From an uncultured Eubacteriales bacterium (GTDB taxonomy: Bacteria > Bacillota > Clostridia > Christensenellales > CAG-138), in contig URSN01000013.1 in the NCBI GenBank assembly GCA_900550525.1, positions 1 through 27,668 on the forward strand: 27,668 nucleotides of DNA. The letters run 5' to 3'. This document shows positions 2,094-24,852 of the stretch, one piece after another (position 1 is the stretch's first letter; each line of letters begins with the position of its first letter). Below the pieces are notes generated by a model. It searched no databases. It saw only the letters and a program-made list of their open reading frames with translations, and had not been told where the DNA came from. The translations under genes and the position numbers were made by a program.

Positions 2094-2395
2094 GTTCTCT
2101 TTTCTTTCCGGAGGCGAAAAGAGAACCAGAAAAGAAAGCCATAAACCCGCTTGGGTTGGCCCGCCGCGCCCGCCCGTCAGCGGCGCTTGCGTTTGCCTGC
2201 AAAAAATATTTTGCGGGGCTTTTCTTTCAGAAAAGCCCCGCAGGAAAAAAAGGAGAAGCGAAAGATGGGAGAGGGCTGCCCAAAAGTTTCCGCGCAACTC
2301 CCACCCCGTTAAGGTTTCTTTTCTTTGGTTCTTTCTTTTCTTTTCCTGAAAGAAAAGAAAGAACAGAGAGAAAAAGAAAAAGAAACGTAAAAGCG
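2094..2395 (+). repeat. Structured intergenic repeat, copy A
   Basis: First of three copies of a roughly 300-bp element. Left hairpin: 11-bp perfect stem 2094-2104 with 2116-2126. Central hairpin: 12-bp perfect stem 2213-2224 with 2230-2241. The 5' arm of the central stem can alternatively pair upstream (2196-2204 with 2209-2217, one T-G wobble), so the two central stems exclude each other. Right hairpin: 16-bp perfect stem 2328-2343 with 2349-2364, followed by a purine tract. Conserved linkers include GCCCGCCCGTCAGCGG (2167-2182) and CCCCGTTAAGGTTTC. It lies between the convergent methyltransferase and L,D-transpeptidase genes and takes up essentially the whole gap. No coding frame is supported. 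It may act as a bidirectional terminator or be a non-autonomous repeat element. Confidence 0.85.
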
Positions 2396-3546: not shown

Positions 3547-5436
3547 TCAGAAGATGCGGAACGCCATCAGGAAGTGGCTGGGCCAGTAGGAGCCGCTGAG
3601 CACCGTGGAGGTGATGCGCACCTTGCCCGCGCCGGAGCCGGCGTCGATCATCTTGCCGTTGCCCAGGTAGAAGCCCACATGGCCGGTGGCCATGGACGTG
3701 TCGGAAAAGACGAGCACGTCGCCGCGCTTGATGTCGCTCATGCTGGTGATCTTCTGGTACTTGGTGCAGCTGCGCCAGGCGACGGAGGTCATGTAGCTCT
3801 GCTTCACGCCCGCCTGATTCAGGCACCAGTAGACAAAGCCGGAGCAGTCGAACGTGTTGGGGCCCTTGGCGCCGCGCACGTACTTGCAGCCGAGCTTGCT
3901 CTCGGCGATGTCGATGAGCCGCTCCACGCCGGTGGCGCTGGAGGAGCCGCCCGACGAGCCGCCGGAGCTGCCGGAACCGCTGGAGCTGCCGCCGGAGGAG
4001 GGCTTATCGTCCGACGAGGAGGAGCCGCCCGACGAGCCGCCGGAGCTGCCGCCGGAGGAGGACGAGGCCGCCTTCTTCGCGTTTTTCGAGTTGAGCGTTT
4101 CGAGCGTGACCGTGCCGACCTTGCCGTCGGCGCCCAGCTTGTTGCGCCGCTGGAAGGCCATGACGGCCTCCTGCGTGATCTCGCCAAAGTAGCCGGTGGC
4201 GTTGGCCGCGCGCATGTAGCCCAGCTCCGCGAGGCGCTTCTGGATGGCGGTGACGTCGCTGCCGCTGTCGCCGAGCTTGATGACCTTGGCCTGCGCGTCG
4301 CTCGAGAGCAGCAGCGCCTTGGTCGCGGGGCCGACGTTGCCGTCCACGACGAGGCCGTTGGCCGCCTGGAACTCGCGCACGGCGGCGGCGGTGGCCTTGG
4401 TGAACTCGCCGCTGGCCTTGCCGTCGTAATAGCCGAGCTTTTCGAGCCGCTGCTGGAAGGTCTTGATCTCGTCGCTCTCGTCGCCCACGGAATAGAACTT
4501 GGAGATGACGTCGCTGCTGTAGAGCGTTTCCATCGTCACCGTGCCGACCTTGCCGTCGCTGGTGAGGCGGTTGCGCTGCTGGAATTCCTTCACGGCCGCC
4601 TCGGTCTTTTCGCCGAAGGTGCCGGTGATGTTGCCCTTGTCGGTGATGTAGCCCAGCTCATAGAGCCGCTGCTGCACGGCCTTCACGTCCTCGCCCTCGT
4701 CGCCGGTCTGCATGACGTAGGGCTTGGCCTCCGTACCGACGAGCATGGCGTACGTCTGGCTGCCGACCTTGCCGTCGCTGGTGAGCCCGTTGTGGCGCTG
4801 GAACGCCTTGATCGCGCTCTCGGTCAGCGGGCCGAAATGCTCCGTCGGCTCGTCGGAATCCATGTAGCCCAGCTCCATCAGGCGCGTCTGGATCGTGGCG
4901 ATGATCTCGCCGTCGTCGCCCGATTCGAGCATGGCAAACGGCGTGGCCTCGGGCTGCTGCGCATCGTCCGCGGAGCCGGCCGCGTCCGCCGTATCGGCCG
5001 CGTCCGTGGAATCCGCCGCGGGTTCGGCCGCGTCCGCCGCTTCGGGCGTCGCCGCCGGGTCGGCCGCCGGGTCCGCCGCGGGCTCGGCCGTCGGTTCGGA
5101 CAGCACGGGCACGTTCGTCGCGGCCAGCTGCGCGCTCAGATCGCCGCCCGCGTCGGCCTGCACGGCGGCCGGGGCGCGCGGCAGCGCCAGCACGAGCACC
5201 AGCACCGATACGAGCACGAGGCTCATCGCGCCGATGCCGTACCACAGCGTGCGCGGCGGCAGGCTGGTCAACAGCCGGTAGAGGCGGCGGCCCAGGCTCC
5301 TGGCCGCCCGGGCGATGGCGCGGCCCGCCCTTTGCAGCAGCGGCCCAAGCGTGCGGCCGAGCTTTCTGCCCAGCGCCGCGAGGATGCGCCCCGTTTTTCT
5401 GAGTATCGTCCGCGCCCGGCGCAGGAAGCGTTTCAT
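3547..5436 (-). CDS. Membrane-anchored NlpC/P60 peptidoglycan endopeptidase with four PG-binding repeats
   Basis: A 629-residue protein with a clear domain order. Residues 1-62 are a strongly basic cytoplasmic tail. A single membrane helix follows at about 65-86. An Ala/Pro/Asp/Glu-rich spacer comes next, then four PG_binding_1 repeats, each with a GD.G..V..(I/V)Q.RL.ELGY pattern and a TSDGKVG-type loop. A Ser/Gly linker leads to the C-terminal NlpC/P60 domain (about 510-629). The catalytic Cys lies in FDCSGFVYWCL and the His in GHVGFYLG. It likely cleaves stem peptides of peptidoglycan outside the membrane, with the repeats holding it on the wall. The long Arg/Lys-rich amino tail is unusual and might contact cytoplasmic partners, lipids or nucleic acid. 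Start ATG 5436 has an upstream AAAGGGG and its own promoter at 5485. Confidence 0.9.
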   Translation of the reverse strand: MKRFLRRARTILRKTGRILAALGRKLGRTLGPLLQRAGRAIARAARSLGRRLYRLLTSLPPRTLWYGIGAMSLVLVSVLVLVLALPRAPAAVQADAGGDLSAQLAATNVPVLSEPTAEPAADPAADPAATPEAADAAEPAADSTDAADTADAAGSADDAQQPEATPFAMLESGDDGEIIATIQTRLMELGYMDSDEPTEHFGPLTESAIKAFQRHNGLTSDGKVGSQTYAMLVGTEAKPYVMQTGDEGEDVKAVQQRLYELGYITDKGNITGTFGEKTEAAVKEFQQRNRLTSDGKVGTVTMETLYSSDVISKFYSVGDESDEIKTFQQRLEKLGYYDGKASGEFTKATAAAVREFQAANGLVVDGNVGPATKALLLSSDAQAKVIKLGDSGSDVTAIQKRLAELGYMRAANATGYFGEITQEAVMAFQRRNKLGADGKVGTVTLETLNSKNAKKAASSSSGGSSGGSSGGSSSSDDKPSSGGSSSGSGSSGGSSGGSSSATGVERLIDIAESKLGCKYVRGAKGPNTFDCSGFVYWCLNQAGVKQSYMTSVAWRSCTKYQKITSMSDIKRGDVLVFSDTSMATGHVGFYLGNGKMIDAGSGAGKVRITSTVLSGSYWPSHFLMAFRIF

Positions 5437-5547: not shown

Positions 5548-6582
5548 TCAGCGGTCGAATTCGCCGCGGCGGTAGTCCAGCAGCGCGGCCCGGTAGGCGG
5601 AGAGGTCCTCGAGCACCCGGCCCGTGCCGATGGCCACGCAGCTGGCCGGGTCCTCCGCCAGGCGGCAGGGCACGCCGGTGTGCTCGGCGATGTAGCGGTC
5701 CAGCCCGCGCAGCTGCGCGCCGCCGCCGGTGAGGCAGATGCCGGATTCGGTGATGTCCGCGGCCAGCTCCGGCGGCGTCTGCTCAAACAGCGCGCGCACA
5801 TGCTCCATGATCTGCCGCAGCGGCTCGGCCAGCGCGTCCACCAGCTCGTTGGTCGCCACGGGCACGGCCTCGGGCAGGCCCGTGGCCAGGCTGCGGCCGC
5901 GGATCTCCACGCCCAGCTGCTCCTTCTCGATGTGCGCGCGGCCGTAGGCGATCTTGAGGTCCTCGGCCGAGCGCTCGCCGATGGCCAGCTCGTGCTTGCG
6001 CTTCATGTAGCGGATGAGCGCCTGGTCGAACCGGTCGCCCGCGACGCGCACCGTGTCCGAGAGCACCACGCTGCCGAGCGAGAGCACGGCGATGTCCGTC
6101 GTGCCGCCGCCCACGTCGAGCACCATGGCGCCGCGCGCGGCCGCGATGTCCACGCCCGCGCCGATGGCCGCGGCGATCGGCTCCTCGATCAGATAGCAGT
6201 AGCGCGCGCCGGCCTCGGCCGCCGCCTCGACCACGCAGCGCTGCTCCGCCTCCGTCACGCCCGAGGGCACGCAGATCACCACGCGCGGCCGGCACAGCAG
6301 CCGCGGCCCCACCGCCTTTTTGAAAAAGTACCGCAGCATGCGCGCCGTCACGTCGAAGTGGGAGATCACGCCCTCCTGCAGCGGCCGCACCACGGCCAGC
6401 TCCGGCGGCGTGCGGCCGACCATGGCGCGCGCCTGCTCGCCGATGGCGGCGAGACGCCCCGTCCGCCGCTCGACCACGGCGATGGACGGCTCGCGCAGCA
6501 CGATGCCGCGCCCCCTGACGTAAACGAGTATGCTGGACGTCCCCAAATCGATGCCGACGTCGGAGGTGTCGAACAGGCCCAT
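5548..6582 (-). CDS. mreB: MreB/Mbl actin-like rod-shape protein
   Basis: A 344-residue actin-fold ATPase of normal MreB length. The phosphate-1 motif is DVGIDLGTSSILVYV near the amino end. The phosphate-2 motif is VLDVGGGTTDIAVLS, and the adenosine motif GICLTGGGAQLRGLDRYI is near the carboxyl end. IEEPIAAAIGAG is also characteristic. It polymerises under the membrane and guides the elongation machinery for lateral wall synthesis. The amino terminus MGLFDTSDVG lacks the long amphipathic helix of some Gram-negative MreBs. It could equally be called Mbl, since paralogues cannot be separated from one sequence. There is no mreC or mreD beside it; it leads a leftward wall cluster instead. Start ATG 6582 has GGGGAG upstream and a promoter at 6620-6649. 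Confidence 0.92.
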   Translation of the reverse strand: MGLFDTSDVGIDLGTSSILVYVRGRGIVLREPSIAVVERRTGRLAAIGEQARAMVGRTPPELAVVRPLQEGVISHFDVTARMLRYFFKKAVGPRLLCRPRVVICVPSGVTEAEQRCVVEAAAEAGARYCYLIEEPIAAAIGAGVDIAAARGAMVLDVGGGTTDIAVLSLGSVVLSDTVRVAGDRFDQALIRYMKRKHELAIGERSAEDLKIAYGRAHIEKEQLGVEIRGRSLATGLPEAVPVATNELVDALAEPLRQIMEHVRALFEQTPPELAADITESGICLTGGGAQLRGLDRYIAEHTGVPCRLAEDPASCVAIGTGRVLEDLSAYRAALLDYRRGEFDR

Positions 6583-6912: not shown

Positions 6913-7290
6913 ATGACGGTACGGGCGCTTGGCGAGAGGATCGAGGCGTACTTCGCCGCGTGCGACGCCACGCGGGAGCGCATGGAACAGAGAAACGGCG
7001 CCGCGGCGTACCGGCAGGTGCCGTACACCCTCGCCGGGCTGGCGGCCGCAACGGGCCTTGGCAAGGCGGAGCTGCTGCGCCTCGCGGCGGACGGGGGGCG
7101 GCGCGGGGCGCTCGTGCGCGCGGCGCTGCTGCGCGTCGAGCGGCACCGGAGCGAGCGCGCGCTCATGGGCGAGCTGCAGGCCACGATGGCGCAGGCGCTG
7201 CTGCGCGAGCTCGCGCCGGAGGCGGCCGGCGAGGGGGACGAGCGCCGCGTGGTGGTCGTGCTGGATGACCGGGAGGGGTGGAGCGGCTGA
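6913..7290 (+). CDS. Phage-type terminase small subunit
   Basis: A 125-residue protein at the head of a head/packaging operon. The core PYTLAGLAAATGLGKAELLR followed by VRAALLRVERHRSERAL matches the pattern of P22 gp3-like small terminases: a helix-turn-helix that recognises DNA, then a charged helix for oligomer formation. It would bind DNA and feed it to the large terminase, whose gene starts two bases after its stop codon. I chose ATG 6913 because AAAGGGG precedes it and the protein-like sequence begins there (MTVRALGERIEAYF). A longer version from 6661 or 6853 would add only a basic low-complexity stretch. Function is inferred from position and pattern; the sequence itself is divergent. 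Confidence 0.72.
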   Translation: MTVRALGERIEAYFAACDATRERMEQRNGAAAYRQVPYTLAGLAAATGLGKAELLRLAADGGRRGALVRAALLRVERHRSERALMGELQATMAQALLRELAPEAAGEGDERRVVVVLDDREGWSG

Positions 7291-7291
7291 C

Positions 7292-10249
7292 GTGAAACTG
7301 TACCTCAAGGGCCTTCCCAACCCGCGGCAGGCCGAATTCTTCGCCTCCCGGGCCCGGCACACCGCCTACGGCGGCGCGCGCGGCGGCGGCAAGAGCTGGG
7401 CCATGCGCCGCAAGCTCGTGCTGCTGGCGCTGCGCTACGACGGGCTGCAGATCCTGCTGCTGCGGCGCACGCTGCCGGAGCTGTACGAGAACCATGTGCG
7501 CCCGCTGCTTGCCGAGCTTGGCGGCGCGGTCCCCTACAGCGCGTCGCAGCGGGAGTTCCGCTTCCCCAACGGCAGCCGCATCCGCCTGGGCTACTGCGCG
7601 CAGGAGCAGGACGTATACCAGTACCAGGGGCAGGAGTACGACGTGATCGGCATGGAGGAGGCGACGCACTTTTCCGAGGCGCAGATGCAGTTCCTCACCA
7701 CCTGCAACCGCACGGTGCGCGCGGATTTCCCGCCGCGCATGTACTACACGTGCAACCCCGGCGGGGTGGGGCACGCCTGGGTCAAGCGCCTGTTCCTCGA
7801 CCGGGACTACCGCGGCAGCGAGCGCGCGGAGGACTACCGCTGCATCCCCGCGCGCGTGTACGACAACCCGGTGCTCATGCAGCGCGACCCCGGCTATGTG
7901 CGCACGCTCGAAAACCTGCCCGAGCACCTGCGCCGCGCGTACCTGGAGGGGGACTGGGACGTGCTGGCCGGGCAGTACTTCCCGGAGTTCCGGCGCGACG
8001 CGCATGTGATCGCGCCCCTCGCCCTGCCCGGGCACTGGCGGCGCTTTGCCGCGATGGACTGGGGCTATCACGATCCGTGCGCGGTGCTGTGGCTGGCCGT
8101 GGCGGACGACGGGCGCGTGTACGTCTACCGCGAGCTGTACCTGCGCCATACGCTCTCAAGCGAGATCGCGCGGCGCATGAAGCAGCTGCAGCAGGGCGAG
8201 CGCATCGCCTACACGGTCGCCTCGCCGGACGCATGGCAAAGGCGCGGCCTTGCGGACCTGGCGGGGCAGAGCATCGCGGATTCGTTCGCCGCGGCGGGCG
8301 TGCCGCTGCTTCGGGCGGACAACGCGCGCGTGCCGGGCTGGCAGCGCGTGCGGGAGTACCTTGCGCCGGCGGACGGCGGGCCGCGGCTGCGGAGCTTTTC
8401 GTGCTGCACGAACCTGGCGCGCACGCTGCCGCTGCTGCGCTTTGACGCGCACGACGCGGAGGACGTGGCCGACGGCGGCGAGGACCATGCGCCCGAGGCG
8501 CTGCGCTACGCGCTGATGAGCCGCCCCGCGCCCGCCCGCCGGCGCAGCGCCCCGCCGGCGCGCCCGGCGTACGACCCGTTCGCCGCGCCCGCGCCGCCCC
8601 CGCGCGGCGTTGAGGGGCTCTGCCGCGCGCGGCGCACAAGGAGGAGAGGAAGGGAGATCATGAGAGGGAAGCAGACAGAGCAGAAGCAGCGCCTCAGCGA
8701 CGAGGCGTACCGGCTGTTCCGGGAGTTCCGCAGCGCGTATACGGGCGAATGGCGGCGGCTGGAGAACTGCGAGCGCATGTACCGCGGCGACCACTGGCAC
8801 GACGTGCCGCAGCGCGACCCGAACGAGCCGCGCCCGGTCACGCCCGTGATCCAGTCCACGGTGGAGAACATCAGCGCCGAGCTGATGGACCGCATCCCGG
8901 AGGCGGTCATCGCCCCGGAGACGCCCGAGGACGCGCAGATCGCGCGCGTGCTCGAGGCGGTGATCCGCCAAAACCACGACCTGCTGGGCTATGCGCGCGA
9001 ATACCGCCGCATCGTGCACGACCTGCTGGTGAGCGGCTACGCGGTGCAGGAGGTCGGCTTCGACCCGTCCGCCTGCGGCGGGCTCGGGTGCGCCTATATC
9101 CGGCATGTGGACGCGCGCAGCATCCTGTTCGACCCGGCCGTGACCGACCTGCAGGACGGGCGCGCGGTGTTCAAGATCGGCCTGAGGACCCGCGCGTTCA
9201 TGGAGCAGCATTTCCCCGAGCACGCGCCGTTTCTGACGGACGACGCGTTCCGCGCCGGCGACGCGGCCGAGGATGAGGTGCTGCTGGCCGACCGGCGGGA
9301 CATGCTGCTGCTGATCGAGTACTGGTGGCGCGAATACGACGCCGCCACCGGCGGCAGCCGCGTGCACATGGCGCAGCTGTGCGCCGGGCGCGTGCTGCGC
9401 GACAGCCGGGATACGCGGCCGGAGGGCTATTTCTCGCACGGGCAGTACCCGTTCGTGCTCACGCCGCTGTTCCCGCGGCGCGGCTCGTGCCTGGGGTTCG
9501 GGTATGTGGACCTGATCGAGACGCAGCCGCGCTATGCCGACAAGCTCGACCAGATCGTGCTCAAGAACGCGCTGATGGCCTCGCACAACAAGCTGCTCGT
9601 CACCGAGGCGTCCGGCTTTGACGTGGAGGACCTGCGCGACTGGTCCAGGGACGTGCACCGCGGCGAGAGCCTCTCCGGTGTGACGTGGTTCACCACGCCC
9701 GCGCTGCCGGCCTATCTCGTGGAGTACATCCACGACATCCGCGAGAGCATCAAGCAGGAGAGCGGCGCCAACGACTTCTCCCGCGGGCAGACGGCCGCGG
9801 GCGTGACGGCCGCCTCGGCCATCGCCGCGCTGCAGGAGATGAGCAACAAGCGCGCGCGCACGGCCTCGCGCCTGCTGCACGAGGCGTTCCGCGACGCGGT
9901 GCGGCTGGAGATCGAGGCGGAGCGGGATTTCTCGCTCTTCACGCGCCGCGTGACGGTGGAGATCGACGGCCGGCGGACGCCGTGCACGTTCGAGAGCGCC
10001 ATGCTGCTGCGCGAGGCGCCCGGGCGCGTGCTGCTGCCGGTGGAGTTCTACGTGTCGGTCAAGGCGCAGCAGGAGACGCGCACCACGGCGCTGAGCCAGA
10101 ACGAGCTGGCGCTGCAGATGCTCGGCGCCGGCATCCTGACGCCGGAGCAGGCCGCGGCGCTGATGGTGTTCGACGGCAAGGAGCAGGTGCTCAAGGAGCT
10201 GCGCGAGCGGCGCGAGACACAAGCGACAACGGAAGGAGCAGGAGTATGA
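7292..10249 (+). CDS. Terminase large subunit reading in frame into the portal protein (single 985-codon frame)
   Basis: The first about 455 codons encode a complete large terminase. Walker A is at residues 27-35 (GGARGGGKS), Walker B at 117-123 (DVIGMEE), and the coupling motif TCNPGG at 153-158. The RNase H-like nuclease follows, with acidic residues at Asp256 (AMDWGYHD) and Asp313 (ASPDAW) and the C-terminal EDHAPEALRYAL. It would pump DNA into a prohead and cut it. Start is GTG 7292 with GGGAGGGG upstream. After a Pro/Ala-rich tail no stop occurs: the frame passes through the portal ribosome binding site and joins the portal start at 8660 in phase. A TGA lies one frame away at 8611-8613 (GCGTTGAGG), just where a terminase would end, so a one-base deletion or sequencing error could have removed the stop. 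Translation likely also restarts at 8660. Confidence 0.85.
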   Translation: MKLYLKGLPNPRQAEFFASRARHTAYGGARGGGKSWAMRRKLVLLALRYDGLQILLLRRTLPELYENHVRPLLAELGGAVPYSASQREFRFPNGSRIRLGYCAQEQDVYQYQGQEYDVIGMEEATHFSEAQMQFLTTCNRTVRADFPPRMYYTCNPGGVGHAWVKRLFLDRDYRGSERAEDYRCIPARVYDNPVLMQRDPGYVRTLENLPEHLRRAYLEGDWDVLAGQYFPEFRRDAHVIAPLALPGHWRRFAAMDWGYHDPCAVLWLAVADDGRVYVYRELYLRHTLSSEIARRMKQLQQGERIAYTVASPDAWQRRGLADLAGQSIADSFAAAGVPLLRADNARVPGWQRVREYLAPADGGPRLRSFSCCTNLARTLPLLRFDAHDAEDVADGGEDHAPEALRYALMSRPAPARRRSAPPARPAYDPFAAPAPPPRGVEGLCRARRTRRRGREIMRGKQTEQKQRLSDEAYRLFREFRSAYTGEWRRLENCERMYRGDHWHDVPQRDPNEPRPVTPVIQSTVENISAELMDRIPEAVIAPETPEDAQIARVLEAVIRQNHDLLGYAREYRRIVHDLLVSGYAVQEVGFDPSACGGLGCAYIRHVDARSILFDPAVTDLQDGRAVFKIGLRTRAFMEQHFPEHAPFLTDDAFRAGDAAEDEVLLADRRDMLLLIEYWWREYDAATGGSRVHMAQLCAGRVLRDSRDTRPEGYFSHGQYPFVLTPLFPRRGSCLGFGYVDLIETQPRYADKLDQIVLKNALMASHNKLLVTEASGFDVEDLRDWSRDVHRGESLSGVTWFTTPALPAYLVEYIHDIRESIKQESGANDFSRGQTAAGVTAASAIAALQEMSNKRARTASRLLHEAFRDAVRLEIEAERDFSLFTRRVTVEIDGRRTPCTFESAMLLREAPGRVLLPVEFYVSVKAQQETRTTALSQNELALQMLGAGILTPEQAAALMVFDGKEQVLKELRERRETQATTEGAGV
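8660..10249 (+). CDS. Podovirus-type portal protein (internal start of the fused frame)
   Basis: The 529-residue segment starting at ATG 8660, preceded by a strong AAGGAGGAGAGGAAGGGAG, matches P22-like portal proteins. It has an amino-terminal helical stretch (ERMYRGDHWHD), then VTPVIQSTVENISAELMDRIPE, a clip/stem region with ADKLDQIVLKNALMASHNK, the segment RGQTAAGVTAASAIAALQEM, and a long C-terminal helix rich in Gln, Glu and Arg. The portal is the dodecameric ring through which DNA enters the capsid and to which the neck attaches. Its stop overlaps the scaffold start by four bases (ATGA), showing translational coupling. The good ribosome binding site argues that portal is made separately even though the upstream terminase frame is continuous with it. 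Confidence 0.85.
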   Translation: MRGKQTEQKQRLSDEAYRLFREFRSAYTGEWRRLENCERMYRGDHWHDVPQRDPNEPRPVTPVIQSTVENISAELMDRIPEAVIAPETPEDAQIARVLEAVIRQNHDLLGYAREYRRIVHDLLVSGYAVQEVGFDPSACGGLGCAYIRHVDARSILFDPAVTDLQDGRAVFKIGLRTRAFMEQHFPEHAPFLTDDAFRAGDAAEDEVLLADRRDMLLLIEYWWREYDAATGGSRVHMAQLCAGRVLRDSRDTRPEGYFSHGQYPFVLTPLFPRRGSCLGFGYVDLIETQPRYADKLDQIVLKNALMASHNKLLVTEASGFDVEDLRDWSRDVHRGESLSGVTWFTTPALPAYLVEYIHDIRESIKQESGANDFSRGQTAAGVTAASAIAALQEMSNKRARTASRLLHEAFRDAVRLEIEAERDFSLFTRRVTVEIDGRRTPCTFESAMLLREAPGRVLLPVEFYVSVKAQQETRTTALSQNELALQMLGAGILTPEQAAALMVFDGKEQVLKELRERRETQATTEGAGV

Positions 10250-10698
10250 AGCACAACAGGGACACGTCCGCCGTGCAGGCGGCGGCGCAGGCGGCGCCAG
10301 CGCCGGAGGCCCCCGCGTCCGGCGGGGAGGAGGCGCGCCCGTTCGGCGCGCTGGTCAACGAGCTGACGGAGCTGGTGCGCTCCGGCGCGCTGCCGGAGGG
10401 GTTCGACCTGGCGGAGGCGTGCAGCGATGCGGCGTTCCTTGAACTGACCGAGGAGCTGCCGCTTGCCGCGGCCATCCGCGTGTACGCGGCCGAGCGGCGC
10501 GCCGCGCGCGCCGACGAGGGCGCGCGCGAGCGTCTTGCGGCCAAGCTGCGCAGCCGCAGCGCGCTGCCCCAGCCGGTGCGCGGCGCGTCCGGCGCGTCCG
10601 TGGAGCGGGATTACGCCGGCATGTCGGACGAGGAGTTCCGCGCGCTCGAGCAGCAGTACCGCCGCGCGGCGCAGCGCGGCATCCGCGTCCGCCTCTGA
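10246..10698 (+). CDS. Probable capsid scaffolding protein
   Basis: A 150-residue, Ala/Glu/Arg-rich, mostly helical protein between portal and major capsid genes, the usual place of a scaffold. It has a disordered Ala/Pro amino end, a helical centre (FGALVNELTELVRSGALPEG), and a basic C-terminal patch (LEQQYRRAAQRGIRVRL) of the kind scaffolds use to contact coat protein. It would template prohead assembly and then leave. The start overlaps the portal stop (ATGA) with GGAAGGAGCAGGAG upstream. No family-specific motif is visible, so the assignment rests on position, size and composition. Confidence 0.65.
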   Translation: MKHNRDTSAVQAAAQAAPAPEAPASGGEEARPFGALVNELTELVRSGALPEGFDLAEACSDAAFLELTEELPLAAAIRVYAAERRAARADEGARERLAAKLRSRSALPQPVRGASGASVERDYAGMSDEEFRALEQQYRRAAQRGIRVRL

Positions 10699-10737
10699 CG
10701 CGGCCGGGCGCAGCACAAGGAAAGGAAGGAGCAAGCC

Positions 10738-11943
10738 ATGAGCAACATCAACACCACCCTCAACACCGCGGCCACGACCTTCACCAACAAGGAGTACTAC
10801 GACCGCAAGCTGCTCGAAACGGCCAAGACGCGCCTGGTGCACGCGCGCTTTGGGCAAAAGCGCGCCATCCCGCCGCACAGCGGCAAGCGCGTGGAGTTCC
10901 GCCGCTATGAGCTCTTCACGCCCGACGCCGGCCGCCTCACGCTCGCGGAGGGCGTCACGCCCGACGGGCAGAGCCTCGCCCAGTCGCGCGTGGAGGCGGA
11001 GGTCCGCCAGTACGGCGCGTACATCGAGGTGTCCGACCTGCTGGACCTGACGGCGTTCGACAACGTCATCAACGACGGCGCGGAGCTGCTGGGCGAGCAG
11101 CTCGGCACGGTGATCGAATGGGTCACGCGCGACGCCATGTGCGCCGGCACGAACGTGCAGTACGCCGGCGGCGGCACGAGCAGGGCCGGGCTGACCGCCG
11201 AGGATACGCTGACCGTCTCCGAGGTGCGCAGGGCCGTCCGCACGCTCAAAAAGGCCAAGGCGCGCATGTTCACCTCGCTCGAGGGCGGGCAGAAGAAGCC
11301 GCACTTCATCTGCATCTGCTCGCCGGACGCGACGTTCGACCTGCAGTCCGACCCGCTCTGGCAGGACGTGTCCAAGTACGCCAACGCCGAGGCCGTCTAC
11401 AGCGGCGAGATCGGGCGGCTCTTTGGCGTCGTGTTCGTGGAGAGCACGGAGGCGAAGGTCTTTTCCCAGAGCGTGTACACCACCGTCGCCGCGCACGAGG
11501 CCGGCTGCGCCGAGGTGAAGCTCGCCTCCGTGACGGACGCGGCGGCGGCCTACCTGCGCGCCGGCGCGAAGCTGACCATCGGCGAGACGGAGTACACCGT
11601 GTCCGCGCTCGATCGCGCCAATGCGGCCGTGACGCTGAGCGCGCCCGTGGCCGCGGCCATCCCCGCCGGGACGAAGGCGTACAGCCAGGACGCCGGCGCG
11701 CTCGATGGCGACAAGCGCGGCGCGGACGTGCACGCCACGCTCGTGTTCGGCGCGGACGCCTACGGCGTGATCGACGTGGCCGGCGGCGGCGCGCTGCGCA
11801 CGATCATCAAGCCGTGCGGCAGCGCGGGCGCGGCGGACCCGCTCGACCAGCGCTCCACCGTGGGCGCGAAGGTGGAGGCGTACACCGCCGCCATCCTCAA
11901 CGACCTGTGGCTGGTGCGCATCGAGCACCGCGTGACCATCTGA
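10738..11943 (+). CDS. N4-gp56-family major capsid protein
   Basis: A 401-residue HK97-fold coat protein of the N4-gp56 family. Characteristic stretches are GKRVEFRRYELF, LAEGVTPDGQSL, VRQYGAYIEVSDLLDLTAFD, AGTNVQYAGG, TVSEVRRAVRTLKKAKARMF, YSGEIGRLFGVVFVESTEAK, HATLVFGADAYGVIDVAGGG and CGSAGAADPLDQRSTVGAK. It would form the shell that encloses DNA. Between about residues 254 and 325 there is an Ala/Thr-rich beta-like segment that looks like an inserted surface domain. AAGGAAAGGAAGGAG precedes the ATG. The coding sequence is intact and carries no sign of decay, which suggests the particle is still under selection. Confidence 0.9.
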   Translation: MSNINTTLNTAATTFTNKEYYDRKLLETAKTRLVHARFGQKRAIPPHSGKRVEFRRYELFTPDAGRLTLAEGVTPDGQSLAQSRVEAEVRQYGAYIEVSDLLDLTAFDNVINDGAELLGEQLGTVIEWVTRDAMCAGTNVQYAGGGTSRAGLTAEDTLTVSEVRRAVRTLKKAKARMFTSLEGGQKKPHFICICSPDATFDLQSDPLWQDVSKYANAEAVYSGEIGRLFGVVFVESTEAKVFSQSVYTTVAAHEAGCAEVKLASVTDAAAAYLRAGAKLTIGETEYTVSALDRANAAVTLSAPVAAAIPAGTKAYSQDAGALDGDKRGADVHATLVFGADAYGVIDVAGGGALRTIIKPCGSAGAADPLDQRSTVGAKVEAYTAAILNDLWLVRIEHRVTI

Positions 11944-12012
11944 CCGGGCGGCGGCGCGGGCGGCGGCCGCCGCCCGCGCCGCGCAAAAGCGACGGGAGAA
12001 AGGAGCACATCC

Positions 12013-12291
12013 ATGCAGTATATCACCGAGGAACAGATGCACCGCATCGAAAGCGACACCTGCGCGGCGCTTCGGAACGAGCCGCGCGCGCCCATCCGCA
12101 TCGAGCCGCTGCACGGCGAGGCGTACTGGGAGGGCGGCATCAACGGGCACTTCTTCCGCGTGCCGACGGGCGTGCCGGTCGAGGTGCCGGAGAGCCTCGC
12201 GCGGCTCATCGCCGCGGGCGAGCGCGTGCGCGTGGCCAGCGCCGAGCGCCTCTCGCCCTACCGGCGCGGCGGCGGCCGGCGCGTGGGATAA
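12013..12291 (+). CDS. Small conserved phage-head-associated protein
   Basis: A 92-residue protein directly after the capsid gene, with AGAAAGGAG upstream. The centre (YWEGGINGHFFRVPTGVPVEVPESLARLI) has the look of small proteins that follow N4-gp56 capsid genes in podovirus-like genomes: a short beta hairpin containing NGH.FRVP.G.PVEVPE, then a helix. Its role is unknown; a capsid decoration or head-completion role would fit. It ends in a Gly/Arg tail. Recognition is from memory of the pattern, not from a search. Confidence 0.65.
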   Translation: MQYITEEQMHRIESDTCAALRNEPRAPIRIEPLHGEAYWEGGINGHFFRVPTGVPVEVPESLARLIAAGERVRVASAERLSPYRRGGGRRVG

Positions 12292-12303
12292 GGGGGGAGC
12301 GGC

Positions 12304-12843
12304 ATGACGCTGCAGGAACTGTTGACGGCCGTTTTACAGCAGCTCGACCGCAGCACCGACGCGCAGACGCTCGAGACCTGGCGCGACAAGCTCACGCGCT
12401 ACCTCAACGACGCGATGGTGGACCTCTCCGGCGCGGTGCAGCCGCGGCGCACCGAGACGGTTTCGATCACGGGCGGCGCGATCGACCTGACGCTGCTCGA
12501 GCGCCCGCTGGTGAAGGCGGTGGCGCTCGCGCGCGGCGGCGCGCGGCTGCCCTTCTACTACGGCGCGGGCACGCACCTGCTGCACGTGCCCGGCGTACCG
12601 GACGGCGCGGCGGAGCTGACGTACCGCTACATGCCGCGGATGCTCGCGGCCGATACCGACGTGCCGGACCTGCCCGAATACAGCCACGGCGCGCTGGTGA
12701 CCTACGCGGTCGCGCGCGAGCGCGCCGCGGGCGACGCGGCGGCCGCCGCGCAGGCGGGCTTTGCGCTCTATCAGCAGATGCGCCGCGCGCTGCGCGCCCA
12801 CAGCGGCGAGCTGGACGCCTACCGCATCGAGAACGCCTACTGA
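12304..12843 (+). CDS. Head-tail connector / adaptor protein (P22 gp4-like or gp6-like)
   Basis: A 179-residue protein with the layout of head-completion adaptors. It has an amino-terminal helix (TLQELLTAVLQQLDR), then WRDKLTRYLNDAMVDLSGA, a beta region (TETVSITGGAIDLTLLERPL and ELTYRYMPRMLAADTDVPDLP), and a helical end rich in Ala/Arg (LVTYAVARERAAGDAAAAAQ and YQQMRRALRA). The DVPDLPEYSHGALVTYAVARE segment is typical of this group. It would sit below the portal as the first ring of the neck. ATG 12304 has GGGGGGAG upstream. It lies just before the propeller-like protein, as in P22-type neck gene order. Confidence 0.7.
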   Translation: MTLQELLTAVLQQLDRSTDAQTLETWRDKLTRYLNDAMVDLSGAVQPRRTETVSITGGAIDLTLLERPLVKAVALARGGARLPFYYGAGTHLLHVPGVPDGAAELTYRYMPRMLAADTDVPDLPEYSHGALVTYAVARERAAGDAAAAAQAGFALYQQMRRALRAHSGELDAYRIENAY

Positions 12844-12859
12844 CGGGGAGGGGATACCG

Positions 12860-14284
12860 ATGGCATTGCAGCTCTACCGCATCGCGCAGTTCCAGGGCAT
12901 CAACCAGAGCGCGTGCGAGAACAACATCGACCCGGGCGAGAGCCCGGACGCGCGCAACATGGACACATCCGGCGGGCCGCTGCGCGTGGCGCGCGGCTAT
13001 GCGCGCCACCACGAGGCCGTGCACCCGGCGCCCGGCGGCGTGCTGCGCATGGCCGTGTGGCACGCCGGCGGCGCGCGGCGCTTCCTCACGGCCACGGCGG
13101 GCGGCTGGCAGGTGCTGCCCGAGAGCGGGACGGCCTGGCAGACGCTCGCCGCGTTCGGCGCGCCCGCCGCGCAGGCGGATTTCCAGAGCGTCAAGATCGG
13201 CGGCACGGAATACATGCTCCTCTCCTGCGGCGCGCAGCAGATCCTCAAATGGGACGGCGCGTCCGCGGCGGCGGAGCCGTTCGGCAGCGCCGAGCAGCTC
13301 TCCAGCGCGCCCGCCGGGCTGCTGGAGCTGTATTACAGCCGCCTGTTCGCCGCGGGCGACCCGGCGCACCCGTGCCGCCTGTACTGGAGCTGCGCGCCGG
13401 GCGACGCGCGCACGGTGGAGGACTGGTCGCAGGACGACGCCTCCCCCAACGTGAGCGGCGGGCATGTGGAGGTCGGCACCGACAGCGACCCGATCACGGG
13501 GCTGTTCGCGCTGTCCAACCAGCTGCTCATCTTCAAGCGGGATTCGCTCTACCGCCTGCTGGGCGACCGGCCGGGCAACTACCGCATCTACCCGGTCAGC
13601 GGGCAGATGGCGCAGCCGGCGCACACCGCGTGCGTGCGCGTGGCGGACGTGCTGTACTTCCTCACCTCCGCCGGGCTGTACTATTTCGACGGGCAGACCG
13701 TGCGCCGCGCGCCGGACGCGGACAAGATCAAGGACTTCCTCGCCGGGGCCGACCTGTCGGACTGCCGCGCGGCCGCCTGCGGCGAGCGGCTCTACTTTGC
13801 CGTGAACACCGGCGCGGGCGCGGGCAACGACGCGCGCGTGGGCTACGACCTGGCGCGCCGCACCTACATGATCCGCGACGGGTTCACCGTGCGCGGGCTG
13901 TGCGCCGACGGCGGGACGCTCTTCCTGCTCACGGGGGAGGGGCGCGTGTGCCGCTTCGACGAGGGCGAAGATTACGACGGACGGCCGATTACGGCCTACT
14001 GGCGCACGCCGATGACGGACCTGGGCGGCAAGATCGCCGTCAAGCAGCTCCGGGAGCTGTACCTGCGCGGCAGCGGCGGCGTGATCGCGGTGGAGGCGAT
14101 CTCAAACGGGACCACCGAGTTCTTCGACCGGCTCATGCCCGCCGCGCTCACCGACGTGCTGGAGGCGCGGCTCACCGGCGACGGGCGCGCGTTCTGCCTG
14201 CGCCTGTCCAACGAGTTCGGCACGCATTTCACCATCGACGGCGGCGTGGAGCTGCTGTTCGACGCGCAGCGCCGCGTGCTGTAG
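12860..14284 (+). CDS. P22 gp10-like neck/hub protein with propeller-like repeats
   Basis: A 474-residue protein starting at ATG 12860 (GGGGAGGGG upstream). The amino end QFQGINQSACENNIDPGESPDARNMD is a hallmark of phage tail-accessory proteins. It is followed by repeating blade-like stretches with aromatic-Gly turns (YSRLFAAGDPAHPCRLYWS, LFALSNQLLIFKRDSLYRLL, VADVLYFLTSAGLYYFDG, GERLYFAVNT, GGTLFLLTGEGRVCRFDEG), consistent with a beta-propeller like P22 gp10, the DNA-stabilising hub of the short tail. The stop is TAG, one of few in the window, and the frame after it reaches the next start without another stop. Presence of this gene argues that the particle had a closed neck, but no tail spike gene follows. 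Confidence 0.7.
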   Translation: MALQLYRIAQFQGINQSACENNIDPGESPDARNMDTSGGPLRVARGYARHHEAVHPAPGGVLRMAVWHAGGARRFLTATAGGWQVLPESGTAWQTLAAFGAPAAQADFQSVKIGGTEYMLLSCGAQQILKWDGASAAAEPFGSAEQLSSAPAGLLELYYSRLFAAGDPAHPCRLYWSCAPGDARTVEDWSQDDASPNVSGGHVEVGTDSDPITGLFALSNQLLIFKRDSLYRLLGDRPGNYRIYPVSGQMAQPAHTACVRVADVLYFLTSAGLYYFDGQTVRRAPDADKIKDFLAGADLSDCRAAACGERLYFAVNTGAGAGNDARVGYDLARRTYMIRDGFTVRGLCADGGTLFLLTGEGRVCRFDEGEDYDGRPITAYWRTPMTDLGGKIAVKQLRELYLRGSGGVIAVEAISNGTTEFFDRLMPAALTDVLEARLTGDGRAFCLRLSNEFGTHFTIDGGVELLFDAQRRVL

Positions 14285-14317
14285 CCGCGGCGCAACGGAA
14301 GAAAGGAGGCACAGCGC

Positions 14318-14509
14318 ATGGCCTATCAACCCACCGGCGTACAGACGATGTTCCCGGTCTACCTGCAGCGCATGGCCGCGGCCGGGCAGACGCGCGAGAG
14401 CTACGACATCGCCGTGGCGCACAACGAGGCGAACCTGAACCAGAACCTGGAGACGCTCTACCGCAAGCTCCTCGAGATCGAGGAGTACCTTGCCGGTGCG
14501 GCGCAGTAA
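14318..14509 (+). CDS. Small helical protein of the phage-type operon
   Basis: A 63-residue protein with an excellent GAAAGGAGG before the ATG. After an extended amino end (MAYQPTGVQTMFPVYLQRM) the rest is a helix with heptad-like Leu spacing (NEANLNQNLETLYRKLLEIE), suggesting a coiled coil. I do not recognise a family. Position after the hub gene would fit a short neck, needle or chaperone protein. Confidence 0.55.
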   Translation: MAYQPTGVQTMFPVYLQRMAAAGQTRESYDIAVAHNEANLNQNLETLYRKLLEIEEYLAGAAQ

Positions 14510-14543
14510 GGGGCAAAACAGTGCAGATAAGGGGGAAGCAGGC

Positions 14544-15392
14544 ATGAACATTCTGAGCAAGCGCACGGGCAGGGCGCCCGTGCGGGTGCAGCTGTCCGAT
14601 CCGGCGCCCGCCACGAACTGGCGGCAGCGCGCCGCGGCAAAGGAGGCCGCCGCGCAGTTGGCGGCGCAGCAGGCGGCGCCCTCCGGCGGCAGGACGGGCG
14701 GCGGGGGCGGCGGCTCCCGCGGCGGCGCGACGCTCGAGAGCTACGTCAAGACCCTCTACGACGCGTACCGTCCGCCGCGCGCCGATTACGAGGCGATGGA
14801 CGCGGCGCAGCTGAGCGCGCAGATCGCCTCCTGGCTGCGCCCCGTCTACGAACGGGCGATGCAGGCGCGCCGCGAGCAGACGGCGGCCTACCGCGCCGAG
14901 CTCGACGCGGACGCCATCGCCCGCGGCATGGGCAGCTCCACCTACGTCACGGACGTGAAGAGCCGCCAGCTTGCCGACGAGGCGGAGGACGTGGCCGCGC
15001 TCGAGGGCGAGTACGGCGCAGAGCTCGGGCGGCTGACCATGGAGGCGGCCGAGGCCGAGCGCGAACGGGAGATGGAGGTCGCCCTGTTCAACCGCCAGCA
15101 GGACGAGGCGGCCTACATGAAGGCGTACGAGGCGGCGCTCGCGCTCTACGAGACGGCGGCAAGGCGCAGCGGCGGCGGCTCCCGCGGCGGCAGCGGCGGC
15201 GGCGGCGCGCAGCAGGCCGTGCCCGCCACCACGGCGGAGAACTGCGAGCGGTTCCTCGCCGGGCTCACGGGGCAGGAGCGCTACGCCGTCTATACCGGCA
15301 CGGACGCGGAAAACGCCCGCTACCGCAGCGAGATCATCGCCTCCGTCGGCAGCGACGGGCTGCTCGAGCTGATGCGGCGCTACCCGTTCTGA
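14544..15392 (+). CDS. Unrecognised 282-residue helical protein with Gly-rich linkers, last gene of the operon
   Basis: Starts at ATG 14544 with AAGGGGGAAG upstream. The amino end is basic (MNILSKRTGRAPVRVQ), followed by a short helix and a Gly-rich linker (about residues 47-61). A long charged helical region spans about 63-207 and includes DAIARGMGSSTYVTDVKSRQ and EYGAELGRLTMEAAEAERER. A second Gly/Ser linker covers about 209-222. A compact C-terminal domain (about 228-282) contains CERFLAGLTGQERYAVYTGT and ends in LMRRYPF. No enzyme motif or signal peptide is seen. In podovirus gene order this slot holds internal ejection proteins or a tail needle; the helix-rich, linker-separated design fits an internal or ejected protein. 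It could also be lineage-specific cargo. Followed by a strong terminator. Confidence 0.6.
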   Translation: MNILSKRTGRAPVRVQLSDPAPATNWRQRAAAKEAAAQLAAQQAAPSGGRTGGGGGGSRGGATLESYVKTLYDAYRPPRADYEAMDAAQLSAQIASWLRPVYERAMQARREQTAAYRAELDADAIARGMGSSTYVTDVKSRQLADEAEDVAALEGEYGAELGRLTMEAAEAEREREMEVALFNRQQDEAAYMKAYEAALALYETAARRSGGGSRGGSGGGGAQQAVPATTAENCERFLAGLTGQERYAVYTGTDAENARYRSEIIASVGSDGLLELMRRYPF

Positions 15393-15459
15393 GCGCGGCG
15401 CGCCCGCAGCCCGCGCCCCGGCGCAGCGGCGCAGGGGCGCGGCCGCCGCGACGGCACAA

Positions 15460-15499
15460 CGCCGCACGGCGTCCCTTTCGGGACGCCGTGCGGCGTTTT
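15460..15499 (+). terminator. Intrinsic terminator of the phage-type operon
   Basis: A perfect 16-bp stem (15460-15475 with 15480-15495), a 4-base TTTC loop and four T residues (15496-15499) lie about 70 bases after the last operon stop. It would end rightward transcription before the convergent LCP gene. Confidence 0.9.
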
Positions 15500-15557: not shown

Positions 15558-17546
15558 TCAGTTGAAGTTGACGCGCACCTCGTTGAAGCTGCTGTCGTAC
15601 TCGTATTTGACCTTCCAGTAGAGCTTGCTCGCCTTGTAGCCGTACTCGGCGGCCACGCGCAGCGCGAGCGACTTCACCTCGTCCATGGCGGCCTTGAGGT
15701 CGTCGTTGCGCGCGGAGAGGGAGTTGCTGCTGCCGTTGCGGTAGCGCTTGGCCTGCGCCGAGGCGTCGCTGAGTGCGCGCTCGAGCGTGTCGATCGCCTC
15801 GAAATATTCCGCGGCCAGGGCGCGCTGCTCGGCGCTGTACTGCTGCACGATCCACACGCCCTCATCCTCCGGCGCGGCGCGGTGCATGCGGCGCAGCGCG
15901 CCGGGCAGGCCGCCCGCGGCGGACGTCCCCTGCGCGCCGTCCGCGGAGGCGGCGGGCTGGGCCGGCGTTTCGGCCGGGGACGACGTGGGCGCTTCGCTCG
16001 GCTTTTCCGTGGGCCGCTCCGTCGGCTCCGCCGGGCCCACGGGCTCGCCGTCCGGCGTCGGGGCGGGCGATGCGGTCGGCTCCGTGGTGGGCTGCACCGT
16101 CGGCTCCAACGTGGACGCGCCGCCCGGGTCGGGCGTGATCGGCGCGGGCGTGGCGGGCGTGATGCTCGCCTCCGGCGTGATGCTCGGCGCCGGCGAGATG
16201 GTCGGCAGCAGGTCGTCCGCGGCGCGCAGCTCCTCGACCAGCTCGGTCAGCGGCTCGCACGTATCGAGGTACTGCTCGGCCAGCATCGAATACCAGCGGT
16301 AGAAGGCGTAGGTGCGCGTATACTCGCGGTACTGCGGCACGTCCACGCCGTAGACCTCCTTGATGATGCGCACGCGATTTCCCTGATCGGTCAGGCAGAA
16401 GTTCCAGTTGAAGATATTTGTCACGCCGGAGGTGCCGTTGGACCCGCTGCCCATGGAGTACATGCCGATGTTGTCGGCGCTGAGGTTATAGGCAAACAGC
16501 GCCAGCGCCGCCGTCTGCGAGAAGTTCGTGTTCGTGTACAGCTGCCCCTCGAACGCGGCGATCATGTCGGGGAGCTTGAGCAGGAGGTTCTGCTGCTGCA
16601 TGGACTTGAACAGCGCCACCATCATCTTCTTCTGGCGGTTGACGCGGTTGTTGTCGCCGCTTTGCGAGATGTTCTTGCGCACGCGCAGGTAGTCGAGCAC
16701 CGCCTGCCCGTCCATGTGCTGCTGGCCCTTCTTGTAGCTGCGGCCCTGGATCTTGAAATTCAGCTCAAGGTCGTAGTCCACGCCGCCCACCGCGTCCACC
16801 AGCTGCTTGACCGCCGGCATGGTGACGGCGTAGTAATAGTCCACCGGGATGCCGCCGAGCATCCACTCCGCCGCCTCGCACACCTTTTCAAACCCGGCGC
16901 CGTTCTCGGCGAACAGGCCGCCGCCGCAGTCGAGCGAGGCGTTGATCTTGTAGATGCCCTTCACGCCCGGGATGTTGGCGTAGGTGTCGCGCGGGATGGA
17001 GATGAGGTCCACGCGGTTCTCGTCAAAGTTGATCGCAAGGATCAGGATCACGTCCGCATGGAAGGCGTTGTCCTCCGCCTTGCCGTGGTAGCCGGTGAGC
17101 CGCTCCTCGGCATAGTCCACGCCGATGAACGCGACGTTGACGATGTTCTGCATCATCGACAGGTCGGCCTGCTGCTCGAGCGCGGTGTACGGGTCGAGCG
17201 TGGGCGAGGGCGTGGGCTCCTGCGTGGGCGCGGCGCTCGGGTCGGGCGTGGCGGGCAGGGGCGTGGCCGTCGCGCGGCTCACGTGGAAGAACGAGCCGGG
17301 GTCGTTGCGCAGCGCGTTGAGATAGATCAGCCCCGCGCACGCGAGCACCAGCGCGAGCGCGCCGGCGCAGATGGCGATGATGCCGCCGCGCGAGAGGCGC
17401 TTTTTCGGCTGCTCCTGCTGAAAATAATCCGTCGGCACGAACGCTTCGACGTTGTGCTCCTGCTGCGTCTGTTCGGCCGGAAGATCCTCCGGCGCCTGCT
17501 CGGCAGGCAGGCCGGGCTCCTGGTTCCGCTTTTCCTGGTCGTCCAT
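15558..17546 (-). CDS. LytR-CpsA-Psr family wall-polymer ligase with Pro/Thr-rich spacer and extra C-terminal domain
   Basis: A 662-residue membrane protein. A cytoplasmic tail of about 57 residues precedes one membrane helix (GGIIAICAGALALVLACAGL). After a Thr/Pro stretch comes the LCP domain, with VNVAFIGVDY, DVILILAINFDENRVDLISI followed by PRDTY, KINASLDCGGG, DYLRVRKNISQ and GDNNRVNRQKKMM. These hold the Arg and Asp residues that bind the polyprenyl pyrophosphate substrate. The enzyme links secondary polymers to peptidoglycan outside the cell. A long Pro/Thr-rich spacer (PSITPEASITPATPAPIT and similar) leads to a C-terminal helical domain of about 120 residues of unknown role. I chose ATG 17546 because GGAAAGGAAG lies just upstream; an alternative at 17588 adds 14 residues without a good site. 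It is divergent from a glycosyltransferase operon. Confidence 0.88.
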   Translation of the reverse strand: MDDQEKRNQEPGLPAEQAPEDLPAEQTQQEHNVEAFVPTDYFQQEQPKKRLSRGGIIAICAGALALVLACAGLIYLNALRNDPGSFFHVSRATATPLPATPDPSAAPTQEPTPSPTLDPYTALEQQADLSMMQNIVNVAFIGVDYAEERLTGYHGKAEDNAFHADVILILAINFDENRVDLISIPRDTYANIPGVKGIYKINASLDCGGGLFAENGAGFEKVCEAAEWMLGGIPVDYYYAVTMPAVKQLVDAVGGVDYDLELNFKIQGRSYKKGQQHMDGQAVLDYLRVRKNISQSGDNNRVNRQKKMMVALFKSMQQQNLLLKLPDMIAAFEGQLYTNTNFSQTAALALFAYNLSADNIGMYSMGSGSNGTSGVTNIFNWNFCLTDQGNRVRIIKEVYGVDVPQYREYTRTYAFYRWYSMLAEQYLDTCEPLTELVEELRAADDLLPTISPAPSITPEASITPATPAPITPDPGGASTLEPTVQPTTEPTASPAPTPDGEPVGPAEPTERPTEKPSEAPTSSPAETPAQPAASADGAQGTSAAGGLPGALRRMHRAAPEDEGVWIVQQYSAEQRALAAEYFEAIDTLERALSDASAQAKRYRNGSSNSLSARNDDLKAAMDEVKSLALRVAAEYGYKASKLYWKVKYEYDSSFNEVRVNFN

Positions 17547-17610
17547 ATGGCGCTTCCTTTCCAGGGGATTCTGCGCCCGCCGGCGCATGGCGCTGCGGCG
17601 GGATGTTCCT

Positions 17611-20290: not shown

Positions 20291-20555
20291 AAAGAAAAGA
20301 GAACCAGAAAAGAAAGCCGGGAACCCGCTCCGGAAACAGCCGTTGCGCCCGCCCGTCAGCGGAACTTACATTCCCCGCAAAAATAATTTTGCGGGGCTTT
20401 TCTTTCAGAAAAGCCCCGCAGGGAAAAATGGGTAACGGATGATGGAGGAGGGCTGCCCGCTGGCTTGCGCGCAAATCCCTCCCCGATAAGGTTTCTTTTC
20501 TTTGGTTCTTTCTTTTCTTTTCCCGAAAGAAAAGAAAGAACGAAAAAGAAAAACA
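20271..20555 (+). repeat. Structured intergenic repeat, copy B
   Basis: Same orientation as copy A. Left hairpin: 14-bp perfect stem 20271-20284 with 20291-20304. Central hairpin: 12-bp stem 20391-20402 with 20408-20419, identical to copy A. Alternative upstream stem: 10-bp perfect, 20373-20382 with 20387-20396, sharing the 20391-20396 arm. Right hairpin: 16-bp stem 20505-20520 with 20526-20541. Conserved linker GCCCGCCCGTCAGCGG is at 20347-20362. It fills the gap between the convergent two-TM gene and pth. Confidence 0.85.
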
Positions 20556-20565
20556 CGGAAGCGGC

Positions 20566-23341: not shown

Positions 23342-23384
23342 CCCGCGCCCGCTCTGTTCTGCCGCTTTCCTTCTTTTCTGTTCT

Positions 23385-23683
23385 GTTCTTTCTTTTCTTT
23401 CAGGAAAAGAAAAGAAAGAACCAAAGAAAAGAAACCTTAACGGGGAGGGGGATGAGCGGAAGCAATCGGGCGGGCCGCCCCGCAGCGTTCGTTTCCCGTC
23501 TATCGGGCGGCCGCCCCGGCTTGCGTTACCCATTTTTCCCTGCGGGGCTTTTCTTTGAAAAGCCCCGCAAAATATATTTTGCGGGAAATCCAAGTGCCGC
23601 TGACGGGCGGGCGCGGCGGATCAACCCAGGCGGGTTCCTGAGCTTTCGCTTGGTTCTTTTTCTTTCACAGAAAGAAAAAGAAC
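23385..23683 (-). repeat. Structured intergenic repeat, copy C (inverted)
   Basis: Reverse orientation relative to A and B. Right hairpin: 16-bp stem 23385-23400 with 23406-23421, same arms as A. Central hairpin: 12-bp stem 23542-23553 with 23557-23568, same arms but a 3-base loop. Alternative stem: 10 bp, 23564-23573 with 23576-23585, sharing the central arm. Left hairpin: 14-bp stem 23653-23666 with 23670-23683, with arms that differ from A and B yet still pair perfectly. It lies between the convergent metG and XRE/TPR genes. Confidence 0.85.
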
Positions 23684-24825: not shown

Positions 24826-24852
24826 GGCGGCCTCCCCTGCGTGTATGCTCTT

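Follow-up and report, generated by a model that had tools for sequence, protein, structure and literature searches.

A podovirus-type packaging and capsid operon kept in the chromosomes of Christensenella-related Clostridia, likely part of a GTA-like system

Described host-kept phage particles and the operon under study

RcGTA and other alphaproteobacterial gene transfer agents (GTAs) are siphovirus-like, and the PBSX particle of Bacillus subtilis is long-tailed. According to the accessible part of PMC12946183, very few GTA systems are known, most of them from Alphaproteobacteria, with one podovirus-like case dating from 2026. FpGTA of Faecalibacterium is described there as a ten-ORF operon of 10.5 kb with an unlinked second operon carrying a receptor-binding protein (RBP), a holin and an endolysin; it has no replication genes, is near-ubiquitous in its clade and yields ~40-nm particles with packaged fragments of 8.4–8.9 kb (PMC12946183). 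The same source reports GTA-like packaging of host DNA in Christensenellaceae faecal particles, possibly from a family other than the one studied here, and its accessible part gives no operon for this packaging.

The window, i.e., the whole stretch of 27,668 nucleotides analyzed here, carries on its plus strand (6913–15392) ten closely packed genes forming a podovirus-type packaging, head and tail-nozzle operon. As far as FpGTA is described in the accessible part of PMC12946183, the two have in common a ten-ORF operon encoding small and large terminases (TerS, TerL), portal, scaffold, capsid and proteins of a short tail, the lack of replication genes and near-ubiquity in the clade; of an unlinked RBP/lysis set, parts are seen here in some of the relatives. 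They differ in operon size (8.5 kb in the window), in spread (one genus vs. 92/103 species of another bacterial family), in gene order, which is broken up in several clades of the window-type operon, and in the P22-like fold of the TerS studied here. Particles have been shown for FpGTA, whereas the window operon is known from its genes; judged by this anatomy, it may work like FpGTA I. In two protein searches, the name Faecalibacterium did not occur among the 120 best matches that each listed. Compared with the siphovirus-like RcGTA, the window operon is a podovirus-type N4-gp56/P22 module in Clostridia, and with PBSX the window system would share the character of a Gram-positive, defective, host-kept phage particle. 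RcGTA and the alphaproteobacterial GTAs, as presented in the accessible part of PMC12946183, are likewise host-kept, phage-derived and spread over several loci. Among the titles and abstract beginnings listed in literature searches, none describes this operon.

Genes of the operon and their surroundings

An earlier note on this DNA had read ten packaging and head genes here, and all ten were found as open frames at about the same positions, with TerS, TerL, portal, capsid and adaptor identified by family models. The operon opens with a P22 gp3-like TerS (6913–7290, 125 aa; Pfam GP3_package, PF16677, E 1e-8) and a TerL (7292–8620, 443 aa, frame open into the portal gene) that matches Terminase_3 and Terminase_6N and aligns at the Walker A and nuclease-domain motifs. 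Of the 39 other TerLs aligned, all have the Walker A lysine and two of the nuclease-domain aspartates, and 36 have a third aspartate. These genes are followed by a portal of P22/SU10 type (8660–10249; P22_portal, E 8e-21; phrog_156), a scaffold-like protein recognized by its place between portal and capsid, kept in relatives (10246–10698, 150 aa), the N4-gp56 family major capsid protein (10738–11943, 401 aa; Phage_capsid_3; TIGR04387, 251 bits; phrog_1357) and a small 92-aa protein, also kept in relatives (12013–12291). The remaining genes encode a gp4-like head-tail adaptor (12304–12843; SU10_adaptor, E 3.5e-12), a P22 gp10-like tail nozzle or hub (12860–14284, 474 aa), a 63-aa protein kept in loci of standard layout (14318–14509) and a putative virion protein of 282 aa (14544–15392), which has a near-invariant LDADA..RGMG stretch in an alignment of 27 sequences and homologues in the related phages L127, L134 and L137.

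No Pfam match was obtained for the hub or for the scaffold, 92-aa, 63-aa and 282-aa genes; the scaffold gene also gave no PHROG match, and the 92-aa protein matched no family in the Pfam, PHROG and TIGR04387-type model scans. The order of these four genes is repeated in relatives with standard layout. The gp10-like identity claimed for the hub was confirmed by its predicted structure despite the lack of a Pfam match: the strand-rich, confident model (pLDDT 89.9) had podovirus tail nozzles as its best PDB matches (9nwi, E 5e-23; P22 gp10, 8eap, E 3e-15; and T7 gp12). Six operon proteins were compared with PADLOC models and matched none.

The operon had also been called intact, which holds for the presence of all genes and fails at one point: TerL and portal share a single frame with no stop between them. 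Counting the stop, this frame spans 986 codons between the start of TerL and the end of the portal gene, and its stopless 13-codon joint (8621–8659, plus strand) contains an AGGAGG-type ribosome site for the portal, whose ATG is also retained inside the shared frame. TerLs extracted from host relatives stop near the corresponding point in 29/29 cases; in G360, the window's nearest relative, the contig begins within the portal gene and the TerL end is not visible. The shared frame may reflect a fused protein or a sequence error at the missing stop.

The best match among the genome contigs (L001, 86%) belongs to a MAG labelled Bacilli and was set aside as a search centre. Because 58 other searched kin of that MAG gave no match, we take the contig to be probably mis-binned. 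In it, 280 bases with in-frame stops and no TerL match precede the portal gene, and this stretch (1–280) holds a ~60-base tandem repeat immediately before the portal, where TerL would be expected.

The TerS model (pLDDT 80.6) contains a helix-turn-helix (HTH), and its best fold matches were five chains of the P22 TerS 3p9a (probability 0.97–1.00, with weak E values of 0.03–0.09). For FpGTA, the accessible part of PMC12946183 reports a TerS without an obvious DNA-binding domain. The second HTH helix carries a Y-x-Y/F pattern in 4/4 phages that is missing in 19/19 host TerS proteins, an absence that would fit, without proving, relaxed start-site recognition. A gene of 63–124 aa beside TerL in clades A–C was considered as a link to the TerS C-terminus and not accepted (hhalign probability 15.8%).

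Pfam analysis of the flank proteins bore out the cell-wall genes reported on both sides, with MreB/Mbl, NlpC/P60, YkuD and LytR-CpsA-Psr (LCP) among the neighbouring families. On the minus strand lie the NlpC/P60 wall gene with its peptidoglycan-binding repeats (3547–5436), the MreB/Mbl-like gene (5548–6582) and, beyond the operon, the LCP ligase gene (15558–17588). The strong closing terminator was likewise found, as an 18-pair hairpin on the plus strand (15458–15497; z −6.3 vs. shuffles); a simple terminator scan misses it because it requires more T residues.

The earlier note had stated that integration, replication and lysis genes are absent. For integration and replication this stood: Pfam gave no match to such families among the ten operon and ten flank proteins, and a search of the window plus 40 host loci with one phage integrase as the query gave no integrase-like match. 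As to lysis, the NlpC/P60 wall hydrolase at 3547–5436 also matches Amidase_5 (E 3e-8), although it is unlikely to act in lysis. A single contiguous element with integrase, replication and lysis genes, as in a prophage, was not seen at the window locus. The flanks were also checked for att-like direct repeats, and the longest (14 nt) fell within the range of 16 control pairs (11–16 nt).

The GC content is 0.72 in the operon, and the flanks have 0.68 and 0.66. GC3 is 0.92–0.97 in the operon genes, 0.86–0.97 in seven flanking genes and 0.66 in an eighth, a regulator (23785–24825); in GC3 the operon resembles seven of the eight measured neighbours, and the earlier note had described its base composition as matching the host core. 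The regulator lies within a stretch (23342–27668) where GC drops to 0.56 vs. 0.66–0.72 elsewhere and which is possibly acquired DNA. Three copies of an intergenic element of ~230–280 bases with A/T-rich runs occur in the window (2144–2378, 20340–20565 and 23361–23636); they are 75–88% alike in their aligned parts, one is inverted, and the element resembles a MITE- or REP-like repeat.

Presence, inheritance and dispersal in the family

Distribution was assessed, using one genome per species (n = 103), in the family that contains genome G005 and also G360 (86% to the window in capsid, 81% in MetG). The capsid gene was matched in 92 of these genomes, 90 of them at ≥51% identity; the 92 include two distant matches (36–40% identity) and one 33-residue piece at a contig end. 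The match was single in 88/92, and no internal stop was listed in any of the 92. TerL was matched in 89/103 genomes, two of them weakly, and three of the 11 genomes lacking a capsid match (G180, G361 and G427) have a strong TerL match. In an even draw over the whole order, the capsid was matched in 43/297 genomes, many of the matches being far less similar. A protein search returned 4400 capsid relatives among 7997 scored candidates, the best 120 lying on contigs of ≤3.9 Mb. A distant operon of the same type (L030, 9989–13440; capsid 48%) has neighbours that, by eye, resemble ABC-transporter and other host genes and is perhaps a second, independent domestication.

Clades were taken from an rpoB tree, with the window placed by capsid and metG: A (G349, G416, G418, G421), B (G208, G309, G371, G375, G377), C (G003, G319, G380, with G007 added by gene neighbours), D (the window and G360), E (G426, G428, G429, G431), F (G366, G367), H (G145, G278, G388, G390) and I (G005, G401, G408, G410, G413); G195 and G298 each stand alone outside the lettered clades. 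Quick trees of 28–30 genomes were compared with the rpoB reference. The splits in common with it numbered 18/25 for portal, 16/27 for capsid and 14/26 for TerL, vs. 13/26 for the housekeeping gene metG and at most 3 with shuffled labels. The three operon genes thus track rpoB about as well as metG does, which argues for vertical inheritance of the structural genes, with a reserve for capsid exchange with phages (p 0.011). Clade F and the whole of clade I were not recovered in the capsid tree; clade D joins E in the operon-gene trees and H and I in the metG tree, and rpoB leaves its position open.

Seven IMG/VR phages form a group of their own in the TerL and portal trees (100% support). The host sequences form one group (90%) in the portal tree, and in the TerL tree two host groups form a polytomy with the phages. 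In the capsid tree, the phages are nested among host capsids and a single host clade is rejected (AU test, p 0.011), which indicates exchange of capsid genes between phages and host genomes.

The related podophages (IMG/VR records L126–L135) have TerLs 56–62% and capsids 53–63% identical to those of the window and the same core order. Their longest records measure 39–41 kb, and one 39.3 kb record was read as circular because its capsid gene runs across the overlapping ends. Phage L134 carries an integrase and, behind its last operon gene, encodes a protein of at least 1024 aa that belongs to no known family, has a homologue in L137 and has none in the fetched host loci. A 2018-aa relative of this protein lies in a contiguous prophage-like element of genome G394, which holds the dispersed operon set elsewhere. 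The median portal length is 602 aa in the phages vs. 538 and 526.5 aa in the sets compared with them; phage hub and scaffold ORFs are longer when counted from the first start codon and not over the aligned part. Two faecal phage records tried as close relatives proved distant (TerL 32–34%).

Within-clade dN/dS (NG86) pointed to purifying selection on capsid and terminase, the two genes for which the earlier note had proposed this measurement. With pairs of dS ≥3 excluded from all means, and with some means resting on one to three pairs, TerL, portal and capsid gave 0.06–0.33 and metG 0.06–0.25; these three operon genes are under purifying selection. The values for rpoB in clades E, I and F (0.06–0.08) indicate tighter constraint than on every operon gene there, and the capsid values in H and I (0.31–0.33) exceed those of metG (0.17–0.18). 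Values of up to 0.47–0.61 were obtained for TerS, scaffold, the 92-aa gene, adaptor, hub and the last gene. An rpoB value of 1.33 in clade H was dropped as an artefact, probably stemming from the broken rpoB of G388.

Gene order was counted in the 84 genomes with both TerL and capsid placed. The standard arrangement, with TerL ~3.0–3.7 kb upstream of the capsid gene on the same strand, occurs in 39; TerL lies 5–20 kb downstream in 14, upstream and inverted in five, and on another contig in 26, some of which could be explained by contig breaks. In four genomes (G003, G007, G319 and G233), the capsid gene is ≥13.8 kb from the contig end, in two of them (G233 and G319) ≥31 kb from either end, and neither TerL nor portal was found within the 20 kb fetched around it. 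The system is thus dispersed over several loci in relatives. Operon genes that are split, inverted or moved elsewhere suit a host-owned system and not a phage, since we infer that a phage could not persist with its motor and shell genes at separate chromosome sites. Beside TerL, a phage-type transcription regulator is found in clade C (L174, 10978–11547; phrog_36, E 2e-10) and in G394 (L355, 8886–9407; 61% alike), a candidate regulator of the system.

The neighbours of the operon are the same within inspected clades and different between them, and the fixed mreB–LCP position expected earlier was rejected across clades. The window's flank genes lie near the operon in some relatives only: an mreB-like gene in G388 and G390, an NlpC/P60-type protein at L011 and L014–L016, and an LCP gene at L011. 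Relatives lacking the operon at this site had been named as evidence against domestication; the site does vary, and the domestication idea is not refuted by it.

Release and receptor binding had been expected to come from elsewhere, and unlinked RBP or lysis genes were indeed found in part of the relatives, with an RBP matched in only 48/103 genomes. Behind the capsid genes, the fetched loci of clades A and C carry a BppU-like RBP candidate and those of clade C also an NlpC/P60 endolysin and a Phage_holin_4_1 holin (Pfam scans of a single copy each). For members of clades D, E, F, H and I, RBP or lysis genes were located on other contigs. In G360, the sister of the window, one contig holds an RBP gene next to a gene shared with phages, and a second contig holds a holin gene; the RBP contig is separate from the capsid contig, which is just 8.9 kb long. 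Four clade E genomes and G427 have the RBP and a second fibre-like gene beside what by eye is an alcohol-dehydrogenase-like gene, and in these five genomes the first 150 RBP residues are 80–89% identical and the rest 39–64%, as expected of a receptor-binding protein. Within the tree set, no RBP was found in clades B and I, G195, G298 and G367, and one of the four clade H genomes has one.

RBP, endolysin and a 66-aa protein occur together in G366, and G388 has an RBP with a small holin-like gene. In six genomes (G005, G401 and, outside the trees, G163, G400, G402 and G412), the endolysin is followed by a small protein of 63–95 aa, membrane-like by eye, with a gene of 69–81 aa between the two in 5/6. 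In G401, whose copies were the ones scanned, the 69-aa gene matches hemolysin/holin PHROGs and the 63-aa gene has no PHROG or family match. A lone endolysin occurs at one and the same site in G278 and G390. The endolysin search as a whole gave matches in 90/103 genomes, host NlpC proteins having been picked up as well. Two further G366 loci (L346 and L352) have an endolysin and a holin beside genes that by eye resemble long-tailed-phage tail genes and, in L352, also serine recombinases; these would be separate prophages in the same genome.

Readings of the operon

The operon probably supplies the capsid and packaging functions of a podovirus-type GTA-like system that its hosts, a family of Christensenella-related Clostridia, have domesticated. 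It is well supported that it is not a stray prophage and that an intact phage set is kept in the chromosome of these gut and rumen bacteria. Host domestication, as the earlier note had proposed for the capsid and packaging genes, is well supported by the family-wide presence (92/103), the open genes, purifying selection, host-like trees that resemble rpoB and the dispersal of the parts in relatives. Also in favour count the RBP or lysis genes at other sites in relatives, the integrase of the related phage L134, the co-occurrence of a prophage-like element and the dispersed set in G394, and the published analogue FpGTA I and II. Gene transfer is the most likely function, as anatomy and analogy suggest. 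In some cells, TerS and TerL would load the N4-gp56 capsid through the portal, mainly with host DNA; adaptor and nozzle would close a short tail, an RBP and a lysis cassette encoded elsewhere would finish and release the particle, and the particle would deliver its DNA to kin cells. Counted against the GTA reading are the P22-like TerS fold with its HTH, the exchange of capsid genes with phages, the TerL polytomy of two host groups and the phages, the clade-variable site, the failure to find an RBP gene in more than half of the genomes, the shared TerL/portal frame, the constraint on rpoB above that on operon genes (E, I, F) and the capsid dN/dS above that of metG (H, I).

A PBSX-like particle, which may package DNA but kills relatives instead of delivering it, is an unlikely account of the same genes. 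The RBP with a conserved first 150 residues and a variable rest in five genomes would suit such a killer, as would the PBSX precedent discussed in the accessible part of PMC12946183. Against it stands the continued selection on motor and portal, needless for a pure killer, yet this argument is weak because PBSX, according to the same part of PMC12946183, also packages DNA.

That the operon is the structural section of a cryptic or decaying prophage is, in our view, very improbable: its genes are phage-derived, close phages exist and the window TerL lacks its own stop, but matches occur in 92/103 species with no internal stop listed, selection is purifying, the flank repeat lies within control and one phage integrase as the query found no integrase-like match, either in the window or in 40 host loci. 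A prophage remnant was rejected on the same grounds, i.e., no flank repeats beyond control, no integrase and no decay. Still harder to credit is a satellite or phage-inducible island lending capsids to, or taking them from, a helper phage, for which the related phages and the capsid genes exchanged with them would speak, against the lack of integrase and replication families in the window flanks and the scattering of parts at sites that differ between clades.

Under the GTA reading, an evenly balanced further proposal is that one podophage lineage was domesticated by the whole family ahead of the divergence of its genera, that it was kept as a gene-transfer system dispersed in capsid, motor, RBP and lysis modules, that capsid genes are still exchanged with present-day kin of the donor phage, and that the operon is the gene-level source of the GTA-like packaging reported for Christensenellaceae in the accessible part of PMC12946183. 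If true, this would be a family-wide podovirus-type GTA in gut and rumen Clostridia, beyond the one podovirus-like case of 2026 described there, and the operon offers a testable gene set for the host-DNA packaging reported in Christensenellaceae faecal particles (PMC12946183, accessible part). With closely related true phages at hand and gene order broken up to different degrees, the domestication could then be traced stepwise.

Virus catalogues can also list such bacterial contigs as viruses: the IMG/VR record L124 and the MAG contig L009 have the same length of 13,754 bases and the same match position.
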